Virus record (IMG/VR): IMGVR_UViG_3300028837_000933
Coordinates: 1-64,000 of that record
Length of the DNA stretch: 64,000 bases
Reading direction: 5' to 3' (one strand)
Source: a virus
Shown: positions 12,691 through 61,688 of the stretch, one piece after another
How the letters are laid out: each line of letters opens with the position of its first letter
How positions within the stretch are numbered: position 1 is the first letter of the stretch
Program-made: the position numbers and the translations under genes
Notes under the pieces: generated by a model
The model's input: only the letters and a program-made list of their open reading frames with translations
What the model was told of the DNA's origin: nothing
Databases searched by the model: none

Positions 12691-13620
12691 ATGGCAGAGT
12701 TCACAATGCACTTTTGCGGGCACTATGGAACCGTGTTCGAGGGTGGCGACACACAACGAACACTCTACGAAGCCTGCACCCAAGATGAGCAGCCCGTATG
12801 CCCCTACGGAATAGGGGAAAGCGAGCGCGACCGCTGCGGGTGTTGGGGATGTAGGCTCTATCTCACCGGCTGGCGACGTGGCGATGAGCCGACTAAGGCG
12901 GCCCGCTGGGTGGACGGTCGCAATCTAGCCGCTCAGACACCTGTCTACGGAGGCGGGATCGCAGAGGGCACTTTACAGACCAACCGCATAGCCTGTGGAA
13001 CGAGTGTGCGAGAAGACTTCATCTTCGGGCTTAGCGCCGTCATCCAGGCCATAAGCGCAACGTCCGCGGCATCGGTCTTTGGCGTTGTGTCGCCTATCTC
13101 GGGGAGCATTACTGCGGTTTCCACCACACCCACTTCGAGCATTATCGGCTTCATGTGGCTGTATTCGGCTACAATTGCTGCCGTCTCAACAACGCCCGCT
13201 GCTGTCCTTGGCTTTATCTTCGAGATGGCGGCATCGATGGACATTGCATCGACAACGCCCGACACGCCGGATCTCATCAAGGGACGGCACTTCGATGATG
13301 CGCTGATACTGGCAGCTTCAACAACGCCCGATACCGTGGATCTGCCCGTAGCGAGGAACATGCTGGCTACACTCGCGGCCGCTTGCACCACGCCGGACAC
13401 ACCGATTCTTGCGGTTGAGCGCGAATACGCTGCCACACTGGCCCCAGCTTCCAGCACACCCGACACTGTCGCACTCGACTGCTGGGAACTGTTCTCAGCC
13501 ATACTGGCGGCCGCTTCCACCACGCCGGACACCGTAGCCCTGGCGGTTCAGCGCGAATACGCTGCCGCAATCGATGTCGCTGCCACCACGCCAGACGATG
13601 TGGATCTGACGATCAGCTAG
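12691..13620 (+). CDS. Cys-rich head plus eight STTPD-type repeats
   Basis: A 309-residue protein. Residues 1-110 are a compact, Cys-containing head (CGHYG, VCPYG, RCGCWGC) that may bind zinc. From about 115 to the end there are eight units of 20-25 residues with the pattern 'FAA.I.AASTTPDTV.L.V.RE'. The same repeat fills most of the 994-residue minus-strand protein at 57747. At DNA level 13531-13560 matches 59880-59909 on the other strand with only a few differences. The repeat probably forms a fibrous or solenoid structure; the plus-strand gene may have captured it by recombination. No signal peptide is visible. The next gene is a glycosidase-like protein. Confidence 0.7.
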   Translation: MAEFTMHFCGHYGTVFEGGDTQRTLYEACTQDEQPVCPYGIGESERDRCGCWGCRLYLTGWRRGDEPTKAARWVDGRNLAAQTPVYGGGIAEGTLQTNRIACGTSVREDFIFGLSAVIQAISATSAASVFGVVSPISGSITAVSTTPTSSIIGFMWLYSATIAAVSTTPAAVLGFIFEMAASMDIASTTPDTPDLIKGRHFDDALILAASTTPDTVDLPVARNMLATLAAACTTPDTPILAVEREYAATLAPASSTPDTVALDCWELFSAILAAASTTPDTVALAVQREYAAAIDVAATTPDDVDLTIS

Positions 13621-13629
13621 GAGGCCCGA

Positions 13630-14541
13630 ATGGGATACAAGCATCTAGGAGCACACGTAAACTGGACCGCACAAGACGTTGACCTACTCATCGAAACCTG
13701 GAAGCCGCCGCTCGTTGTGTTGCTCGACCAAAGCGAGGGCTGGAGGCGTGTCAAGCGATCGTGCCCAAACACGATCTTCGTTGGCAGAATCATGCTCGAC
13801 CATCAGCCCGACTTCAACCAGCCTCTCGATGTGCCACAATACGCAGCCGAGTTTGTCGCCACGGTGCGGCCCATGGTGGAGCGGATGATCGATGTCTGGG
13901 ACTACATGCAAACTCTCAACGAGCCGGTGATCAATAGCGTTGAGGCGGCCCAGCGACTTGGTGAGTTCGAGATGATCGTAATGAGCTGGCTCCACGACTT
14001 CACAGGCGGCAGGATCAAGCCGGCCATCTTCTCGTTCGGCGTAGGACATCCCACGGACTTGGGCGCTTTCTGGCCGCCTCTTCTTCACGCGCTCGAAATG
14101 TGCAAGAATCAAGGCGGCGCCCTGGCCAAGCACCAATACGACTGGCCCAATCTGAACCGTGACCCAAAGTGGTACATATTGAGACATAGATTGGACTACG
14201 GCGGCTGTCCAGAACAGGGCTGGCCGGGCTTCCCCGAGCACTTGGCCGATCTTCCGCTGCTTATCACGGAGTGTGGGCTCGATGGCTTGATAGAAGGCGG
14301 AACACCCCGAGGCTGGCGCACACTCTACACAGATCCCGAAACTAGCATAGTCGATCCGGCTCCTTACCTACAAGAACTCACATGGTTCGATGAGCAGCTA
14401 CACCAAGACAAGCAAGTCAAGGGAGCCGCGGTGTACTGTTTCATCGGCGGCGCTGTATGGGAAGCCTACGAGTGTATGCCAGAGATAGGCCACGGCTTGG
14501 CGCAAGAGGCCACGCCGATCTATCGAACGTCTTGTACCTAG
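13630..14541 (+). CDS. Glycoside hydrolase-like TIM-barrel protein
   Basis: A 303-residue protein. It has the two acidic sites of clan-A type glycosidases: TLNEP with the candidate acid/base E98, and LLITECG with the candidate nucleophile E214. The strand-helix spacing fits a TIM barrel. It has no signal peptide, so it either works in the cytoplasm, is released at lysis, or is on the virion. GGAGG lies upstream of ATG 13630. It resembles the barrel halves of the proteins at 7396 and 48523 in layout but not closely in sequence. The substrate cannot be named from sequence; peptidoglycan or surface glycan is plausible in a phage. Confidence 0.7.
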   Translation: MGYKHLGAHVNWTAQDVDLLIETWKPPLVVLLDQSEGWRRVKRSCPNTIFVGRIMLDHQPDFNQPLDVPQYAAEFVATVRPMVERMIDVWDYMQTLNEPVINSVEAAQRLGEFEMIVMSWLHDFTGGRIKPAIFSFGVGHPTDLGAFWPPLLHALEMCKNQGGALAKHQYDWPNLNRDPKWYILRHRLDYGGCPEQGWPGFPEHLADLPLLITECGLDGLIEGGTPRGWRTLYTDPETSIVDPAPYLQELTWFDEQLHQDKQVKGAAVYCFIGGAVWEAYECMPEIGHGLAQEATPIYRTSCT

Positions 14542-15068
14542 TGTGTAACGTCCGCATCGTGGCGGGCGTCTAATCGGCCAACGCTCAGAGTGGTGACAGA
14601 ACGCAAGACGAGACCCTTTACCAGAGTCGGTACTAGCCAGTCTTGCTTCTGGAGTAACTGGTTCACCATGCAAATCGCCGCTCTGACGCGGAGAGGGAGG
14701 TGATAGCCTTGACAACGCCTAGCGGCGGTGGCACAGACTAAGTCGATACCATGTGTCGTTTCTACCGGATTACAACTCGTGTTGAATTGGGTGACATGGG
14801 GAGACCTGACACAAGCACCGGGTGTTGTGCGCTGAAAGTCAGAGGTCTTGGCGTAGATCCTCCTTTGCTGGAAAGTGCAAAAGACGTAAGGTATACGCCA
14901 AAAAGACTACTTAGCCTTACCACCAAATCTAGGAGAAAATCGAGGCCGGGAGCGACAGAGCACGCTTCCTTGGCGGCCCCAATGGGACAACCGCCATCTA
15001 ACCAGTAACACATGGGGGGTGTGCAAAACGCTCCCGGCCCTCAATCTCTCACCGGAAAGGAGTCCAAC
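14542..15068 (+). ncRNA. Candidate structured non-coding RNA region
   Basis: There is no convincing gene in this 527-base gap between a stop codon and the start of the nuclease gene. It is dense in helices: 14548-14555 with 14562-14569 (8 bp, one wobble); TCAGAG 14585-14590 with CTCTGA 14681-14686 enclosing GCAAGAC 14603-14609 with GTCTTGC 14640-14646; a CGCC/GGCG hairpin near 14717; AGACCT 14802-14807 with AGGTCT 14843-14848; and TGGCGTA 14849-14855 with TACGCCA 14894-14900. GTAAGG 14886-14891 with CCTTAC 14915-14920 would make a pseudoknot, and CTAAGT 14738-14743 can pair with ACTTAG 14909-14914. A very strong ribosome site (GGGAGGTGAT, about 14696-14704) precedes TTG 14709, which would encode only ten residues. 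No RNA family was recognised. Confidence 0.5.
14944..15039 (+). promoter_or_regulatory. 11-bp closing stem with internal hairpins before the nuclease gene
   Basis: The arms 14944-14954 and 15029-15039 pair perfectly over 11 bases. Inside are a TGGCGG/CCGCCA hairpin and a CACA/TGTG hairpin. The whole unit ends 30 bases before the GTG at 15069 and just upstream of its AAGGAG, so it could regulate translation of the nuclease or be the 3' domain of the structured RNA. Confidence 0.5.
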
Positions 15069-15644
15069 GTGGAGTTGAGTACACAACAGCGCCTCTTTCT
15101 CGAAAAGTGGATACAGCACGCGCCATCACATCTGCCTCAGCCGGAGTTTGAGCACCGCTTTGCCAAAGACGACTTCAAACGCCAATGGCGGATTGACGTT
15201 GCGTGGCCCTCTCTCAAAGTCGGCTTTGAGATAGAGGGCGGCGCGTTCGCTCGGCGCAGAGGAAAGCGTTGCCGTACCTGTGGTCAAACGCCACCAGGGC
15301 GCCACACCAGCGGCATCGGCTTCTGGCGTGACTTGCGCAAGTACAACGCCGCCCGCGCCCTCGGTTGGGTTGTACTCCAATTCCCGACAAACCTGTTCCG
15401 CGATTCCCTTGGCATGATTCTCGATGAGATGATCGCGGTCGTTGGGGGCCGCTACATCCGCAAGAGCGGACTTGCCGCACTTGTCGAGGCCCTTGAGGAC
15501 ATCCAGGAAGGCGATCCACACAGCGATGATGAAGCGATCGAAAGCATGATGCAAGTCATCAACCGACTCAACAACGACACGCTCGCGACGCGCGAGAGCT
15601 TTGGTAGAAACCTGTACCCGCAAAAGAAGAGGCGCAGCACGTAA
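15069..15644 (+). CDS. Vsr/DUF559-like PD-(D/E)XK endonuclease
   Basis: A 191-residue protein from GTG 15069 with AAAGGAG upstream. The core matches the PD-(D/E)XK layout of Vsr-like and DUF559 nucleases: 'PEFEHRF' (helix with conserved Glu), 'WRIDVAWPSLKVGFEIEGG' (the D..ExE metal-binding strands), then 'GFWRDLRKYNAARALGWVVLQFP'. A CRTCG and T-C pair sits between core strands. Family relatives include mismatch-nicking enzymes and phage homing endonucleases of the EDxHD type. Its position directly behind a structured RNA region makes a homing role worth testing, but a repair, recombination or DNA-degrading role is equally possible. Confidence 0.65.
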   Translation: MELSTQQRLFLEKWIQHAPSHLPQPEFEHRFAKDDFKRQWRIDVAWPSLKVGFEIEGGAFARRRGKRCRTCGQTPPGRHTSGIGFWRDLRKYNAARALGWVVLQFPTNLFRDSLGMILDEMIAVVGGRYIRKSGLAALVEALEDIQEGDPHSDDEAIESMMQVINRLNNDTLATRESFGRNLYPQKKRRST

Positions 15645-15666
15645 GCCCCCTTTACCCTATCGGCCA

Positions 15667-15704
15667 AAATTACACCGTAAGGGCTGCGGTAGATTTCCGA
15701 TTTT
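15667..15704 (+). promoter_or_regulatory. Two-part conserved box, copy 2
   Basis: AAATTACACC (15667-15676), 17 bases, then TTTCCGATTTT (15694-15704). Matches the copy at 2137-2175 in both blocks, with the spacer one base shorter. It lies 92 bases before ATG 15796. Confidence 0.55.
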
Positions 15705-15736
15705 TCGTCTGGCAGTGGAGGCTTGCTACAATCATT

Positions 15737-15764
15737 TTGACAGAAAGTGCGTTAGATGTAGGAA
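15737..15764 (+). promoter_or_regulatory. Possible sigma-70-like promoter
   Basis: A perfect TTGACA (15737-15742) is followed after 16 bases by TAGGAA (15759-15764), a weak -10. A TACAAT at 15727-15732 is an alternative -10 with a poor -35. Located between the shared box and ATG 15796. Confidence 0.4.
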
Positions 15765-15795
15765 TAGTGTTTGATGTGCCGAGGAGACGAGTGTA

Positions 15796-16101
15796 ATGTC
15801 GCAGACGTTGGCAACAGCCCAGATGGCTCAAGACAAGAACTTTGAGGTCGCCTACCTCATGGGCAGCCGAAGCGCTCATACTATGATGCTTTCCGCGATT
15901 CTCACGGGTCTTGGCTATGACTCTAACGAAGACCCATTGATCACGGTAGGCCGACTCGTTTCGGAGAGGGAAGCAACGGTCGCAATACTTCGCAAGGCGT
16001 GCCTGGAGTTTGGTGACAACGATTGGAGTGACCAGCTGCATCTGCGCGATGTAATCGACAAGCATCTCTTACCCTATCTACACGAGCAGGCGAGTGGCTA
16101 A
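15796..16101 (+). CDS. Hypothetical protein
   Basis: A 101-residue, probably all-helical protein with a GAGGAGACGAG ribosome site. Segments such as 'NFEVAYLMGSRSAHTMMLSAIL' and 'RLVSEREATVAILRKACLEF' suggest a helical bundle. No family was recognised. It is the first gene behind the promoter-like region and shared box, so it leads the transcription unit that contains DUF5131 and thyX. Confidence 0.65.
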   Translation: MSQTLATAQMAQDKNFEVAYLMGSRSAHTMMLSAILTGLGYDSNEDPLITVGRLVSEREATVAILRKACLEFGDNDWSDQLHLRDVIDKHLLPYLHEQASG

Positions 16102-16414
16102 GTTTGATGTTAGGTACGATGGACTCAACCGACCGCTTCCCAGTCCACCGCTCGTCACGCTCGGTGGCGTTGAGTGCATACTCCAAAAGGTCAAACTCCA
16201 CGAACTGGATGAGTGGCAGAACGAACACCAAGTGCGATGGGTTCGCAACACGTTCATGGGCAAGTTCGGTCACGTTTCGGTGTTCCATCCGATAGCATGG
16301 GCCACCTATACCCAGGAGGAAGGAAATGAGAAAAGAGACCAAGTTCCAGGCGATGGCCAAGACAATGGGACAGATCCTTCTGATCGCGGCGATAGCGATC
16401 CTGGCCCTGAATGA
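16094..16414 (+). CDS. Hypothetical protein
   Basis: A 106-residue protein from GTG 16094, overlapping the preceding gene by 8 bases. The first 70 residues look like a small folded domain (VRYDGLNRPL..VTLGGVECIL, then KLHELDEWQNEH). The last 30 residues are Gly/Asp/Pro-rich and overlap a second gene in another frame (16326), so the C-terminal tail may be a by-product of that overlap. Confidence 0.55.
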   Translation: MAKFDVRYDGLNRPLPSPPLVTLGGVECILQKVKLHELDEWQNEHQVRWVRNTFMGKFGHVSVFHPIAWATYTQEEGNEKRDQVPGDGQDNGTDPSDRGDSDPGPE

Positions 16415-17456: not shown

Positions 17457-18224
17457 ATGAAGACAAGGCTACTGGTTACGTTCCTCCTCCTGCTCTTGGT
17501 GTTGTTCATCGGCACTGAGGGTCAGGCGCTAACCAACGGCATGAAGATCATCGAAGCCCCCAATGTAGATGACTATGAGTGCGATTCGACAGAGTGGCAC
17601 TTTGTCATCACTCAGGCAGATCCGGCGAGGATGCCAGAATCGATCTTTGTGACTTGGGACTGTGGCGGTCCTATCGAAGTGCCACTGGCAGGCATAAGCG
17701 GCTCCACAGGGCACTACTACTACTATGACAATCTCACGTGTCGTCTCGTCAAGGTTTGGGCTGAAATCTACATAGAGTTCGATGGCAACTTCCGTGTAAG
17801 TCATGGCCCCTGTCTTGAGGAACCAACGCCAACACCTACCAACACGCCAACAGCAACGAATACACCCACACCCACGGACACACCAACCGCAACCCCAACT
17901 CCGACCAACTCACCCACGCCAACGGATACCCCTACAGCTACGCCTACCGCAACACCAACCAACACAGCCACGGCTACCCCTACGCCTACCGATGGACCGA
18001 GCCCCACACCCACCAACACACCCACGGCAAGCAACACGCCCACACCTTCCAAGACGCCCACACTCACACCCACTCCCACAAGCACTAGACGAGTCACACC
18101 TACTCCAACGCCAACCGATGTACCCTTCGTCCCCGAGGCGTCAACAATCGGCTTGATGGTGCCTGCGTTGGCGGCTGGAGCGGCCTACATTGGTCTTCAG
18201 CTACGCAGTCGGCGCCGGAAGTAA
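17457..18224 (+). CDS. Secreted Thr-Pro-rich protein with PEP-CTERM-like anchor
   Basis: A 255-residue protein in four parts: a signal peptide ([19 protein letters not shown]); a folded domain of about 95 residues with Cys pairs; a Thr-Pro tract of about 85 residues with units like [10 protein letters not shown]; and a C-terminal 'PEAST' motif, hydrophobic helix and RSRRRK tail. This matches PEP-CTERM-type sorting signals (V-P-E-x-S/G-T, helix, Arg cluster), which are processed by exosortase-type enzymes, and Chloroflexota proteins often carry such TPTP tracts. A phage that makes a host-style surface protein may change the cell envelope, for example to exclude other phages. The exact motif lacks the second Pro of PEP. 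Confidence 0.75.
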
Positions 18225-57746: not shown

Positions 57747-60731
57747 CTACCTCACTTCAAACACACGGATCTCAGCCGGCACATCGAAGACGCGAAGTTC
57801 AGCCGGCACAAGGAAATAATCGGCCACGTTCATCAATAAGAGCGGAACAGTATCAGGCGTCACGCTCGCGGCGTGTATCAGGGCTGCAAAGTTTGCCTCC
57901 CCCACGGTGAGAACCACGTCATCGGGCGTGCTCGAGACAGCGCTCAGCACTGCGGCTAGGTTCGTTGCTAGGTCCAGATTAGCTGTCGGCGTGGTCGACT
58001 GAGCGGCAATGATAGCCGCCATGCGGAAGATGATCCCCAGCATGGCAGTATCGGGAGTGATGGACCCCGTGGCTATCGCTGCGACATAGGCTCTAGTAAC
58101 CGCCAGCACTACCGTATCGGGCGTGCTGCTGTCAACACCAACCGCCGCGGCTATCGGCAGCACCAGCCCCAGGATCGCATCGGGCGTTGTCGAAACCGCA
58201 TCCAAGGACGCCGTCATCGCCATGACGGCGGTCATGTCTACTGTGTCGGGCGTAGTCGATGCAGCCTCCAGCGATGCGACCATCTCCCGGCTAACTGCCA
58301 ATGGCACCGTGTCGGGCGTTGTGGTCGCGCTATCCAGAGCCGCCGCGAATGACTTGATGATGTCCAGCGAAATGTTGTCGGGCGTGGTGGATGCGGCCAA
58401 AATCAGCGCATCATCGAAACTCGGTTGTCGGTCGAGCGATGCAGTATCAGGCGTTGTTGAGACTGCGTCCAGGGAAGCCGTCATCTTCATGACGGCAGTC
58501 ATGTCTACGGTGTCGGGCGTGGTGGAAACCGCGGCAATGGTGGCCGCGAAAAGAATATCAGCCTCCACGTCCAGTTCCACGGTGTCGGGCGTGGTGGAAG
58601 CCGTATCGATGGCAGCGGAGTACTTCCTGGACACAGCCAGTTCAAACGTGTCGGGTGTGGTTGACACCGCATCCAGGGACGCGACCATCTCCCGGCTAAC
58701 TGCCAATGGCACCGTGTCCGGCGTGGTCGTGGCCGTGTCGATGGACGCAACCAAGCTCGGTTGTCGGTCGAGCGCAACGGTATCCGGTGTGGTCGATGCG
58801 GCTACCGCTGATGCGGCCAGTTCGCAGAACACATCCAGGACTACGCTGTCCGGTGTCGTGCTGGCGGTGTCGATGGTAGCCGCGTACTCGCGAGTGACGG
58901 CCAGCGGCACCGTGTCGGGCGTGGTTGATACAGCCGCCAGGATCGCATCCAGTTCGCAGAACACATCCAGGACTACAACGTCCGGTGTGGTGCTCGCGGC
59001 AGCGGCCAGGGCCGCGAAGGTCTTTATGATCGTCAGCTCGACCGTGTCGGGCGTGGTGGAAGCCGTATCGATGGAAGCCGCGAGCTTCCTGGACACAGTC
59101 AGTTCAAACGCATCGGGTGTGGTGGATGCGGCCAAAATCAGTGCATCATCGAAACTCGGTTGTCTGTCGAGAGAGACCGTGTCCGGCGTGGTCGTGGCCG
59201 TATCGATGGCGGCCGCGAGTTTCCTTGTAATTGCCAAGGTAACGGCATCGGGAGTGGTGGAAACGGACGCCAGGATCGCATCCATCTCCACGAACACGTC
59301 CAGTTCCACGGTGTCGGGTGTCGTGCTGGCGGTGTCGATGGTAGCCGCGTACTCGCGAGTGACGGCCAGCGGCACCGTATCGGGTGTGGTTGAAACGGCC
59401 GCCAGCGTGGCATCCAGTTCGCAGAACACGTCCAGGACTACAACGTCTGGGGTTGTAGTCGCGGCAGCGGCGAGGGCTGCGAAGGTCTTTATGATCGTCA
59501 GTTCGGCGGTGTCGGGTGTTGTGGATGCGGCCAAAATCACCGCGTCATCGAAACTCGGTTGCCGATCGAGCGATGCGGTATCAGGCGTTGTTGAGACTGC
59601 GTCTAATGAAGCCGCAAACTCAATGGTGGCCGTGAGACCAACGTTATCGGGTGTGGTTGACGCTGCATCCAGTGTAGCGGCCAGTTCGATCACGGCGGTC
59701 AGGGCTACGGTGTCGGGCGTAGTCGATGCAGCCTCCAACGATGCGACCATCTCCCGGCTAACTGCCAATGGCACCGTGTCGGGTGTAGTCGCAGCCGCAT
59801 CGATGGCAGCCACGAACTCCCTAGTGACCGCCAGGGGCACGGTGTCGGGCGTGGTCGAAGCTGCGGTGATGACAGCCACGTACTCGCGCTGCACCGCCAG
59901 GGCTACGGTGGTAGGCGTAGTCGAAACAGCTGCACAGACCGCTGAGAAGTTGACATCCTGCCCAACATCCTCGTACAGCGCAGTGATCGCGCCTACCCAC
60001 TCAGAAGAAGAGGAGATCGTACCCGTGACCGTGTCGCCTGTTAGGGCCGTGGCCAGTCGGTACTCCAGCTGAACGGCCACGTTGGATTCGCCGGCGCCTG
60101 CTGTGCCCGACCCGATCGGTGTCCCTAGGTTGGTGTAATCGGCATCTGCGGAGACCGTGACGTTCGTCTTGTTCTGGATGCCCGTCACGTGCAGCATCAA
60201 GTAGTCGCGCTCGGTTAGACTGCTGATGGTCGTGCTTACACTGGTTCCGCTACCATTGGAGCCAGTATCAGCCTCTTCGGTAACGCTTCCAGCCGTGGAG
60301 AACTCCCAGACGCCGATCGCCCGTGCGTAGCAGCTGTGGTGCGTACCCGTGACGGTATCGCTGGCCGCGGTGGTCAGCGCGGTTGTCAGTTCGCTCATCC
60401 AGAGGCTGACGGTCACGCCATCGTTGGCAGAGCCAGATGACCGCGTCCACTCTACGAGTTTTGTGTAGGCGTTGGACTGGTCATCCTGGACCTGCGTGTG
60501 ATCCGTACTGGCACCGCTGGTGGTTGTGTTGTTGTCGGTGACGAGAACAACGATCGCAAGGTCTCCGACCGCTATGTCTGCTGTTACATCGACAGCAGAA
60601 GTAGTGCCGGTGGACCTAAATCCTGCGCCTCCTCGTTCTCCTTGGTAAGCAAATGCCATTTTCTTCGGTTTCTTGGGCTTCTTCGGTTTTTTAGGCTTTT
60701 TCTCCTCGGTGCGACCGAGTGGCGCCCACAT
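57747..60731 (-). CDS. Giant virion protein with about 32 STTPD repeats
   Basis: A 994-residue protein. A Lys/Pro tract (EKKPKKPKKPKKPKK) starts it. Residues about 25-240 form a jelly-roll-like domain ('VDVTADIAVGDLAIVVLVTDNN'). From about 250 to 970 there are about 32 units near 22 residues of the form 'REYAATIDTASTTPDTV.L.V', with some replaced by 'SLDRQPSFDDA.ILAASTTPD'. A C-terminal 'PAELRVFDVPAEIRVFEVR' closes it. The repeat probably makes a long beta or solenoid fibre. Units are alike enough that recombination can change their number. The start could instead be the internal Met after the Lys/Pro tract. Confidence 0.75.
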   Translation of the reverse strand: MWAPLGRTEEKKPKKPKKPKKPKKMAFAYQGERGGAGFRSTGTTSAVDVTADIAVGDLAIVVLVTDNNTTTSGASTDHTQVQDDQSNAYTKLVEWTRSSGSANDGVTVSLWMSELTTALTTAASDTVTGTHHSCYARAIGVWEFSTAGSVTEEADTGSNGSGTSVSTTISSLTERDYLMLHVTGIQNKTNVTVSADADYTNLGTPIGSGTAGAGESNVAVQLEYRLATALTGDTVTGTISSSSEWVGAITALYEDVGQDVNFSAVCAAVSTTPTTVALAVQREYVAVITAASTTPDTVPLAVTREFVAAIDAAATTPDTVPLAVSREMVASLEAASTTPDTVALTAVIELAATLDAASTTPDNVGLTATIEFAASLDAVSTTPDTASLDRQPSFDDAVILAASTTPDTAELTIIKTFAALAAAATTTPDVVVLDVFCELDATLAAVSTTPDTVPLAVTREYAATIDTASTTPDTVELDVFVEMDAILASVSTTPDAVTLAITRKLAAAIDTATTTPDTVSLDRQPSFDDALILAASTTPDAFELTVSRKLAASIDTASTTPDTVELTIIKTFAALAAAASTTPDVVVLDVFCELDAILAAVSTTPDTVPLAVTREYAATIDTASTTPDSVVLDVFCELAASAVAASTTPDTVALDRQPSLVASIDTATTTPDTVPLAVSREMVASLDAVSTTPDTFELAVSRKYSAAIDTASTTPDTVELDVEADILFAATIAAVSTTPDTVDMTAVMKMTASLDAVSTTPDTASLDRQPSFDDALILAASTTPDNISLDIIKSFAAALDSATTTPDTVPLAVSREMVASLEAASTTPDTVDMTAVMAMTASLDAVSTTPDAILGLVLPIAAAVGVDSSTPDTVVLAVTRAYVAAIATGSITPDTAMLGIIFRMAAIIAAQSTTPTANLDLATNLAAVLSAVSSTPDDVVLTVGEANFAALIHAASVTPDTVPLLLMNVADYFLVPAELRVFDVPAEIRVFEVR

Positions 60732-60810: not shown

Positions 60811-60869
60811 AGTCCAAGGACTTGCGCCTACCAATTGATGTGTATCCATGCCCAGCCTCCTTGTCGGAA

Positions 60870-61688
60870 CTAGGACATGGTGATGTCGAGATCCCCCGCG
60901 GGGAACTTTGCAGTGTCCCCGTTGTCAACGGCCTGATCGGTCATGCCGTTGTCATAGAAAAGGAGATCCCCGGCCGTCACGGCCGAACAGATGGCCACGG
61001 CTATGATGGTTCCCCAGTTGGCGGTGGCGGTGGTGAAGGTGATGTCATCGTTGTTGTCCACCAATCCAGCAGCGGCATTGTTCCAATCCGGTGCGGCTCC
61101 GCCATTCGGAGTCACTTGCTCCCTGGCGTACGAGCCACCACTGGGCTCGGTGATCGTGGAACCCGTCATACCGTCCGTGACCGGGTTCGTGATGATCAAG
61201 GCCACGTAGGTGTCGGGCGCCGCGTACGCCTGGTTGCGGAACATCAGATCCAGAAGGTCGATGCACAGGCTGTCGGAGATTTCGCCGGCGCTGAAGGTGA
61301 CATCGATCTCGCCGGAGGCGATGGATGGCGTGTTCCCGCTGACGATCGACTTGCCGGACGCGAACTGTCCGTGGGCGAGCATGTTTCCAGTCCCATGCGC
61401 ACTGGCGTCCACAATCGCCCAGTGGGTAACGGTTCCCCAGGAGCCCGTGGCCTCGGGGAACGTCACCGCGCCCGTCTGGTCCACGGCACGGCTGGCCGCA
61501 GCGGCAAACGTAATGGCGGTTCGGGCGTAGGAGCCCGAGTCGGCGCACTCGCTCATCGAGGCGCCCGTACCCGCATCCGTTGGGTCTGCGGTACAGAGCG
61601 CCACATACACTGTGGCAACGGGGCTGTACGCCGCGTTGCACACATGGTCGAGCAACTCAAGTTCTGCGTAGTCTGAAAGGCTTCCCAT
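60870..61688 (-). CDS. Virion protein with two copies of a tail-fiber-like domain
   Basis: A 272-residue protein with GGAGG upstream. It has two copies of a phage domain of about 130 residues. The first includes 'ELELLDHVCNAAYSPVATVYVALCTADPTDAG', then 'SYARTAIT', 'WGTVTHWAIVDA' and 'GNMLAHGQF'; the second includes 'LLDLMFRNQAYAAPDTYVALIITNP', 'SYAREQVTPNG', 'NWGTIIAVAICS' and 'GDLLFYDNGM'. Such single domains are a common phage protein usually annotated as tail fibre or hypothetical, so this is an internal duplication. It is probably a surface protein of the virion. Confidence 0.75.
   Translation of the reverse strand: MGSLSDYAELELLDHVCNAAYSPVATVYVALCTADPTDAGTGASMSECADSGSYARTAITFAAAASRAVDQTGAVTFPEATGSWGTVTHWAIVDASAHGTGNMLAHGQFASGKSIVSGNTPSIASGEIDVTFSAGEISDSLCIDLLDLMFRNQAYAAPDTYVALIITNPVTDGMTGSTITEPSGGSYAREQVTPNGGAAPDWNNAAAGLVDNNDDITFTTATANWGTIIAVAICSAVTAGDLLFYDNGMTDQAVDNGDTAKFPAGDLDITMS

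Follow-up and report, generated by a model that had tools for sequence, protein, structure and literature searches.

The window analysed here comprises bases 1-64000 of a 121,820-base virus record. Within it, the TAG stop codon (14539-14541) of a gene for a 303-aa protein and the GTG start codon (15069) of a nuclease gene bracket a gene-free spacer of 527 bases, exactly the interval 14542-15068 that the original prediction had delimited. An AAAGGAG ribosome-binding site at 15056-15062 precedes the start codon of the nuclease. The features of the locus are listed below.

14542-15068, plus strand: the whole feature, a gene-free spacer and candidate structured RNA (codon score; fold z -3.73 to -4.1)
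14548-14569, plus strand: 8-bp hairpin ACGTCCGC/GCGGGCGT, directly 3' of the TAG that ends the 303-aa gene (z -3.18)
14580-14692, plus strand: domain B, with nested stems TCAGAGTGGTGA/TCGCCGCTCTGA (12 bp, 2 of them G-U), CAGAA/TTCTG and GCAAGAC/GTCTTGC (fold z)
14696-14741, plus strand: strong Shine-Dalgarno-like GGAGGTGAT (14696-14704), then TTG at 14709 of a 10-codon frame
14848-14920, plus strand: TTGGCGTA/TACGCCAA stem and possible pseudoknot GTAAGG (14886-14891)/CCTTAC (14915-14920) (pairs present in the sequence)
14930-15052, plus strand: domain D, with GGCCGGGAGCG/CGCTCCCGGCC (11 bp, continued past a bulge), GCACGCTTCCT/GGGGGGTGTGC and TGGCGG/CCGCCA (fold z)
14997-15013, plus strand: loop of 17 nt in domain D that is predicted to be unpaired (partition function)
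15056-15062, plus strand: AAAGGAG, the ribosome-binding site for the nuclease, open in the predicted ensemble (partition function)
15069-15644, plus strand: gene for a 191-aa DUF559/Vsr-like endonuclease (phrog_503, tblastn, alignment)

The spacer was proposed to hold no gene, and both tests agreed. Its best-frame codon score of -0.159 is below that of every other 527-base window sampled between 7 and 28 kb, where the next lowest value was -0.137 and the median +0.071, and the open frames of the spacer gave no Pfam match. A decayed gene was likewise rejected, given that no family appeared in any tested frame and that the codon score was the lowest in the sample. Neither promoter-like nor terminator-like sites were found inside the spacer, nor an A+T-rich stretch or an iteron array. 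The hairpin at 14548-14569 is no typical terminator because it is not followed by a T-run. The near-perfect Shine-Dalgarno 9-mer GGAGGTGAT occurs twice in the whole 121.8-kb record; together with the 10-codon frame at 14696-14741 it may mark a leader peptide or be part of the fold.

Folding energies supported the original view of a strongly folding half-kilobase. The plus strand of the whole spacer reached a minimum free energy (MFE) of -200 kcal/mol (z -3.73, 0/100 shuffles as stable; z -4.1 and 0/60 shuffles in a second estimate), and the minus strand reached -195 (z -3.59, 0/100 shuffles as stable). The folding energy thus lies beyond that of shuffled sequence, as would be asked of a selected fold. 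The excess is concentrated in two domains, both stronger on the gene-sense strand: domain B (MFE -45.6, z -4.26 on the plus strand with 0/300 shuffles, z -2.56 on the minus strand) and domain D (MFE -58.9, z -5.94 on the plus strand with 0/300 shuffles, z -4.06 on the minus strand). Because G-U pairs count only on the transcribed strand, this difference mildly favours a sense RNA. The region 14848-14920 gave z -1.71 on the plus and -3.05 on the minus strand, and stem counts of such size are not above chance, while the middle third (14690-14850), where CTAAGT is located, had no folding excess (z +0.21).

The individual pairings fared less well than the overall fold. The three six-base pairings that had been named (TCAGAG/CTCTGA, CTAAGT/ACTTAG and the GTAAGG/CCTTAC pseudoknot) are all present as sequence, but the stem count of the spacer is not above that of shuffles: Watson-Crick stems of 6 bp or longer number 23, versus 24.8 +/- 5.0 in dinucleotide-shuffled copies, and those of 7 bp or longer number 8, versus 6.4. 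With stem counts at the level of shuffles, these stems and the pseudoknot carry no weight alone, and visible six-base stems within half a kilobase are no evidence by themselves.

We also scanned the genome for folding in 490 windows of 260 nt (mean z -0.45, sd 1.31). Of these, 14802-15061, which corresponds to the second half of the spacer, ranked 2 on the minus strand (z -4.88) and 8 on the plus strand (z -3.91). The strongest fold excess of the 64-kb scan was at 60822-61081 on the minus strand (z -6.28, 260-nt windows), adjoining or inside a frame of 272 aa on that strand.

Such a landscape could arise by chance, the spacer being decayed or neutral sequence that folds well by accident. Stem counts equal to those of shuffled sequence, scores on both strands, similar z values in several other windows of the genome and the failure to find a relative would all fit such an origin. 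Against it speak the z-scores of the two domains (-4.26 for B and -5.94 for D, neither matched in 300 shuffles) and the presence of 527 nt without a gene in an otherwise dense arm, and we consider an accident somewhat unlikely, while giving it serious weight. Folding on both strands would also be produced by inverted repeats acting as DNA, in a replication or recombination site, and three copies of TGCAAA, two of them within GTGCAAAA, point the same way. However, B and D fold more strongly on the sense strand, neither iterons nor an A+T-rich stretch accompany the repeats, and the genome is rich in repeats at a different place, near 77-80 kb of the record; an element at the DNA level seems to us quite improbable.

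Several repeats elsewhere in the record were noted in their own right. At L002 13437-16165 (77.4-80.2 kb of the record), repeats of ~80-170 bp occur in several copies that are 94-100% identical, with few long frames, possibly an origin or recombination region. Dispersed repeats of ~70-140 bp, 75-96% identical and in many copies, occupy L002 17098-19728 and L003 114-6195; they may represent repeated modules of promoter and leader, which would allow a covariation test within the genome. Proteins encoded on opposite strands at 12691-13620 and 57747-60731 have common STTPDTV-type repeat arrays whose copies are ~65-85% identical in DNA, and the 255-aa protein at 17457-18224 carries long TPTPTNTPT repeats. 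We associate the latter style of repeat with surface proteins of Chloroflexota, possibly a hint at the host.

The original prediction could assign the spacer to no known RNA class, and this was borne out by Rfam. Cmscan of the window and of the rest of the record with Rfam 15 gave no match at the gathering score. At E<=10, searches of the spacer and of 14400-16200 (spacer, nuclease and flank) yielded nothing relevant, with no group I, group II, GOLLD, ROOL or OLE hit, even though Rfam contains GOLLD, ROOL, OLE and both intron types (PMC12286853, PMC12350094). GOLLD often adjoins tRNA genes (PMC12286853), and ARAGORN found 0 tRNA genes in the window and 0 in the rest of the record. The suggested kinship with GOLLD or ROOL was therefore not supported. 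Two further candidates were rejected: a Ro60/Y RNA, as there is no TROVE protein, and a diversity-generating retroelement, as there is neither a repeat of the upstream gene end nor an RVT_1 domain.

Membership of a described class aside, the spacer could encode a trans-acting, free-standing large phage noncoding RNA comparable to GOLLD or ROOL, processed from the operon or transcribed apart from it, with a loop-loop contact between B and D. The AACCAGT in the loop of domain D is complementary to ACTGGTT at 14657-14663 in domain B, a 7-bp match that is not above chance alone; a kissing contact between the D loop and B is possible on the basis of this complementarity. The match of the open D loop to B, the two strong domains, a possible pseudoknot and a length of 527 nt with no gene are what such an RNA would offer. 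On the other side, there was no Rfam match at E<=10 and no tRNA island, promoter and terminator were not found in the spacer, the middle third shows no more structure than expected by chance and relatives were not found, so that we judge a free-standing RNA unlikely. We give still less credence to a new class of ~500-nt phage noncoding RNA in which B and D would be locked by the ACTGGTT/AACCAGT contact around a pseudoknotted middle and which would be too rare for Rfam or the public collections searched.

A self-splicing intron had been suggested as well, and it did not survive the model searches. There is some resemblance to intron consensus sequences: GUGUG at 14541-14545, at the 5' edge, looks like a group II 5' end, and CACAGACUAAG / CACAGACTAAG at 14732-14742 like a strand of group I P7. 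For group I, the sole partner of the P7-like strand (14735-14743) is 14909-14917, which includes an A-C mismatch, and Rfam gave nothing. For group II, an arrangement with the GUGUG edge, the nuclease as the domain-4 gene and 15645-15795 as D5/D6 had no model match; a D5 hairpin or a matching P7 strand was not found by reading. A reverse transcriptase in the genome is an optional feature of group II introns; RVT_1 (PF00078) was absent from the record, while control genomes gave signal. A mobile intron, intact or a remnant, whose homing gene is the nuclease would gain from the GUGUG edge, the P7-like CACAGACUAAG and the existence of phage introns with Vsr-like homing genes (PMC12350094, PMC11878797). 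Yet no covariance model of group I (P3-P7 core) or group II (D1-D4, D5/D6) matched at E<=10 over 14400-16200, the upstream 303-aa gene has no sign of interruption and no split gene is apparent, and relatives of the nuclease occupy ordinary phage gene cassettes. We regard this origin as scarcely credible.

Nor was support found for the nuclease as the partner that had been envisaged, a homing enzyme of the EDxHD/Vsr type. It belongs to phrog_503 (E 1.4e-14), which is no homing family, whereas the Vsr group of homing genes is PHROG 559 (PMC11878797). Its tblastn matches in phages and plasmids are 30-43% identical; the relatives weakly match DUF559, and two are annotated as mismatch endonuclease. 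Pfam gave no match above cut-off on the nuclease, and no recognised DNA-binding module is attached. Compared with seven aligned relatives, it carries an extra CxxC insert, RRGKRCRTCGQTPP, between the EGG and GRHT motifs, which is absent from all seven, and the alignment also revealed a long C-terminal tail.

Neighbourhoods of related nucleases were compared with this locus. Eight annotated relatives had no comparable spacer upstream; in most of them the nuclease directly follows the preceding gene, several times near ssb or replication genes. At 70 scored IMG/VR nuclease loci, the distance from the nuclease to the open frame before it had a median of -1 nt and, counted generously, a maximum of 443 nt; such a spacer was present at none of them. 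Blastn, nhmmer and the covariance models of B and D found nothing of the spacer RNA at these 70 loci. There is thus no sign, in the sequences compared, of a conserved tie between the spacer and the nuclease.

Relatives of the spacer were sought more widely. Blastn in phages and plasmids was empty, and overall no homologue emerged from phages, plasmids, the fetched IMG/VR loci or 238 genomes. Other genes of the phage, used as bait in IMG/VR, had almost no kin: searches through terminase, DnaB, DUF5131, ThyX and the upstream gene returned either nothing usable or ThyX bearers only, and the few ThyX-bearing viruses were without the spacer. The models of domains B and D, each built from a single sequence, recovered only themselves in 745 kb of loci, bar a weak antisense mirror of D and one chance-level match, and nothing in the 238 genomes; these negatives are weak evidence because models of this kind have little sensitivity and kinship to the host played no part in the choice of genomes. 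An identical match of 19 bases in a deltaproteobacterial genome was dismissed, as its flanks had no similarity, and a scan of IMG/VR with the loop sequence returned 46 contigs, in all of which the resemblance ended with the 15 bases. The putative structured RNA segment has so far been found in a single phage only.

Our preferred reading, held tentatively, is that the spacer forms a lineage-specific structured leader within an operon transcript. The region would be transcribed by read-through from the upstream operon genes, the simplest transcript given that the spacer contains no promoter-like and no terminator-like site. We infer that the sense RNA folds into B and D as self-contained domains, with a loosely structured middle between them. 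Domain D would close on itself just before the ribosome site of the nuclease and leave that site open, which, we propose, would allow the nuclease to be translated independently of the upstream gene; the fold would then serve translation of the nuclease. The absence of a gene, the excess folding of B and D and the predicted open ribosome site are computed. In the predicted ensemble, AAAGGAG has a mean unpaired probability of 0.86 versus 0.52 +/- 0.19 with shuffled upstream sequence; this places it at the 95th percentile, for one site, and is no strong test. With the noncoding codon score and the folding excess of B and D on the sense strand, this accessibility makes a leader that would keep the nuclease translatable the mechanism with the most direct support.

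Several observations weigh against a leader. No homologue was found in the collections searched, the antisense strand also folds above chance, and a single ribosome site could be kept open by far less than 500 nt. Moreover, CTCCTTT at 14860-14866, a 7-nt complement of the ribosome site, could close the site instead. This complement could turn the site into a switch, but the predicted ensemble does not pair it, and sequestration of the ribosome site was rejected since the ensemble predicts an open site.

We provisionally class the spacer as a candidate structured RNA, one of the structured noncoding RNAs of phages, broadly understood. The tests run here place it neither among introns nor in GOLLD or ROOL. 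As a single orphan sequence it is a candidate for a list rather than a result. To our knowledge, few large phage RNAs of unknown function have been described, and every further example that turns up in relatives would help to tell what such RNAs do.

A hallmark of ROOL is the presence of multiple pseudoknots supported by covariation, whereas the pairs described here are predicted from one sequence, with neither an Rfam match at E<=10 nor a tRNA island. What the spacer has in common with GOLLD and ROOL is a phage genome, a length of at least half a kilobase and an elaborate predicted fold without a protein product (PMC12286853). With introns that carry Vsr-like homing genes it shares a predicted structured RNA adjoining a Vsr-like nuclease, but here neither intron type has a model match and no split gene is apparent; the nuclease differs from Vsr homing nucleases in having no recognised DNA-binding module and in belonging to PHROG 503, not 559. 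Among the phrog_503/DUF559 phage endonucleases, the neighbour gene is a member that differs by its CxxC-containing insert and its long C-terminal tail. Compared with structured leaders between phage genes, the spacer is unusually long and comes without a known ligand, leader family or terminator, but it resembles them in that the gene-free stretch ends closely upstream of a ribosome site predicted to be open.
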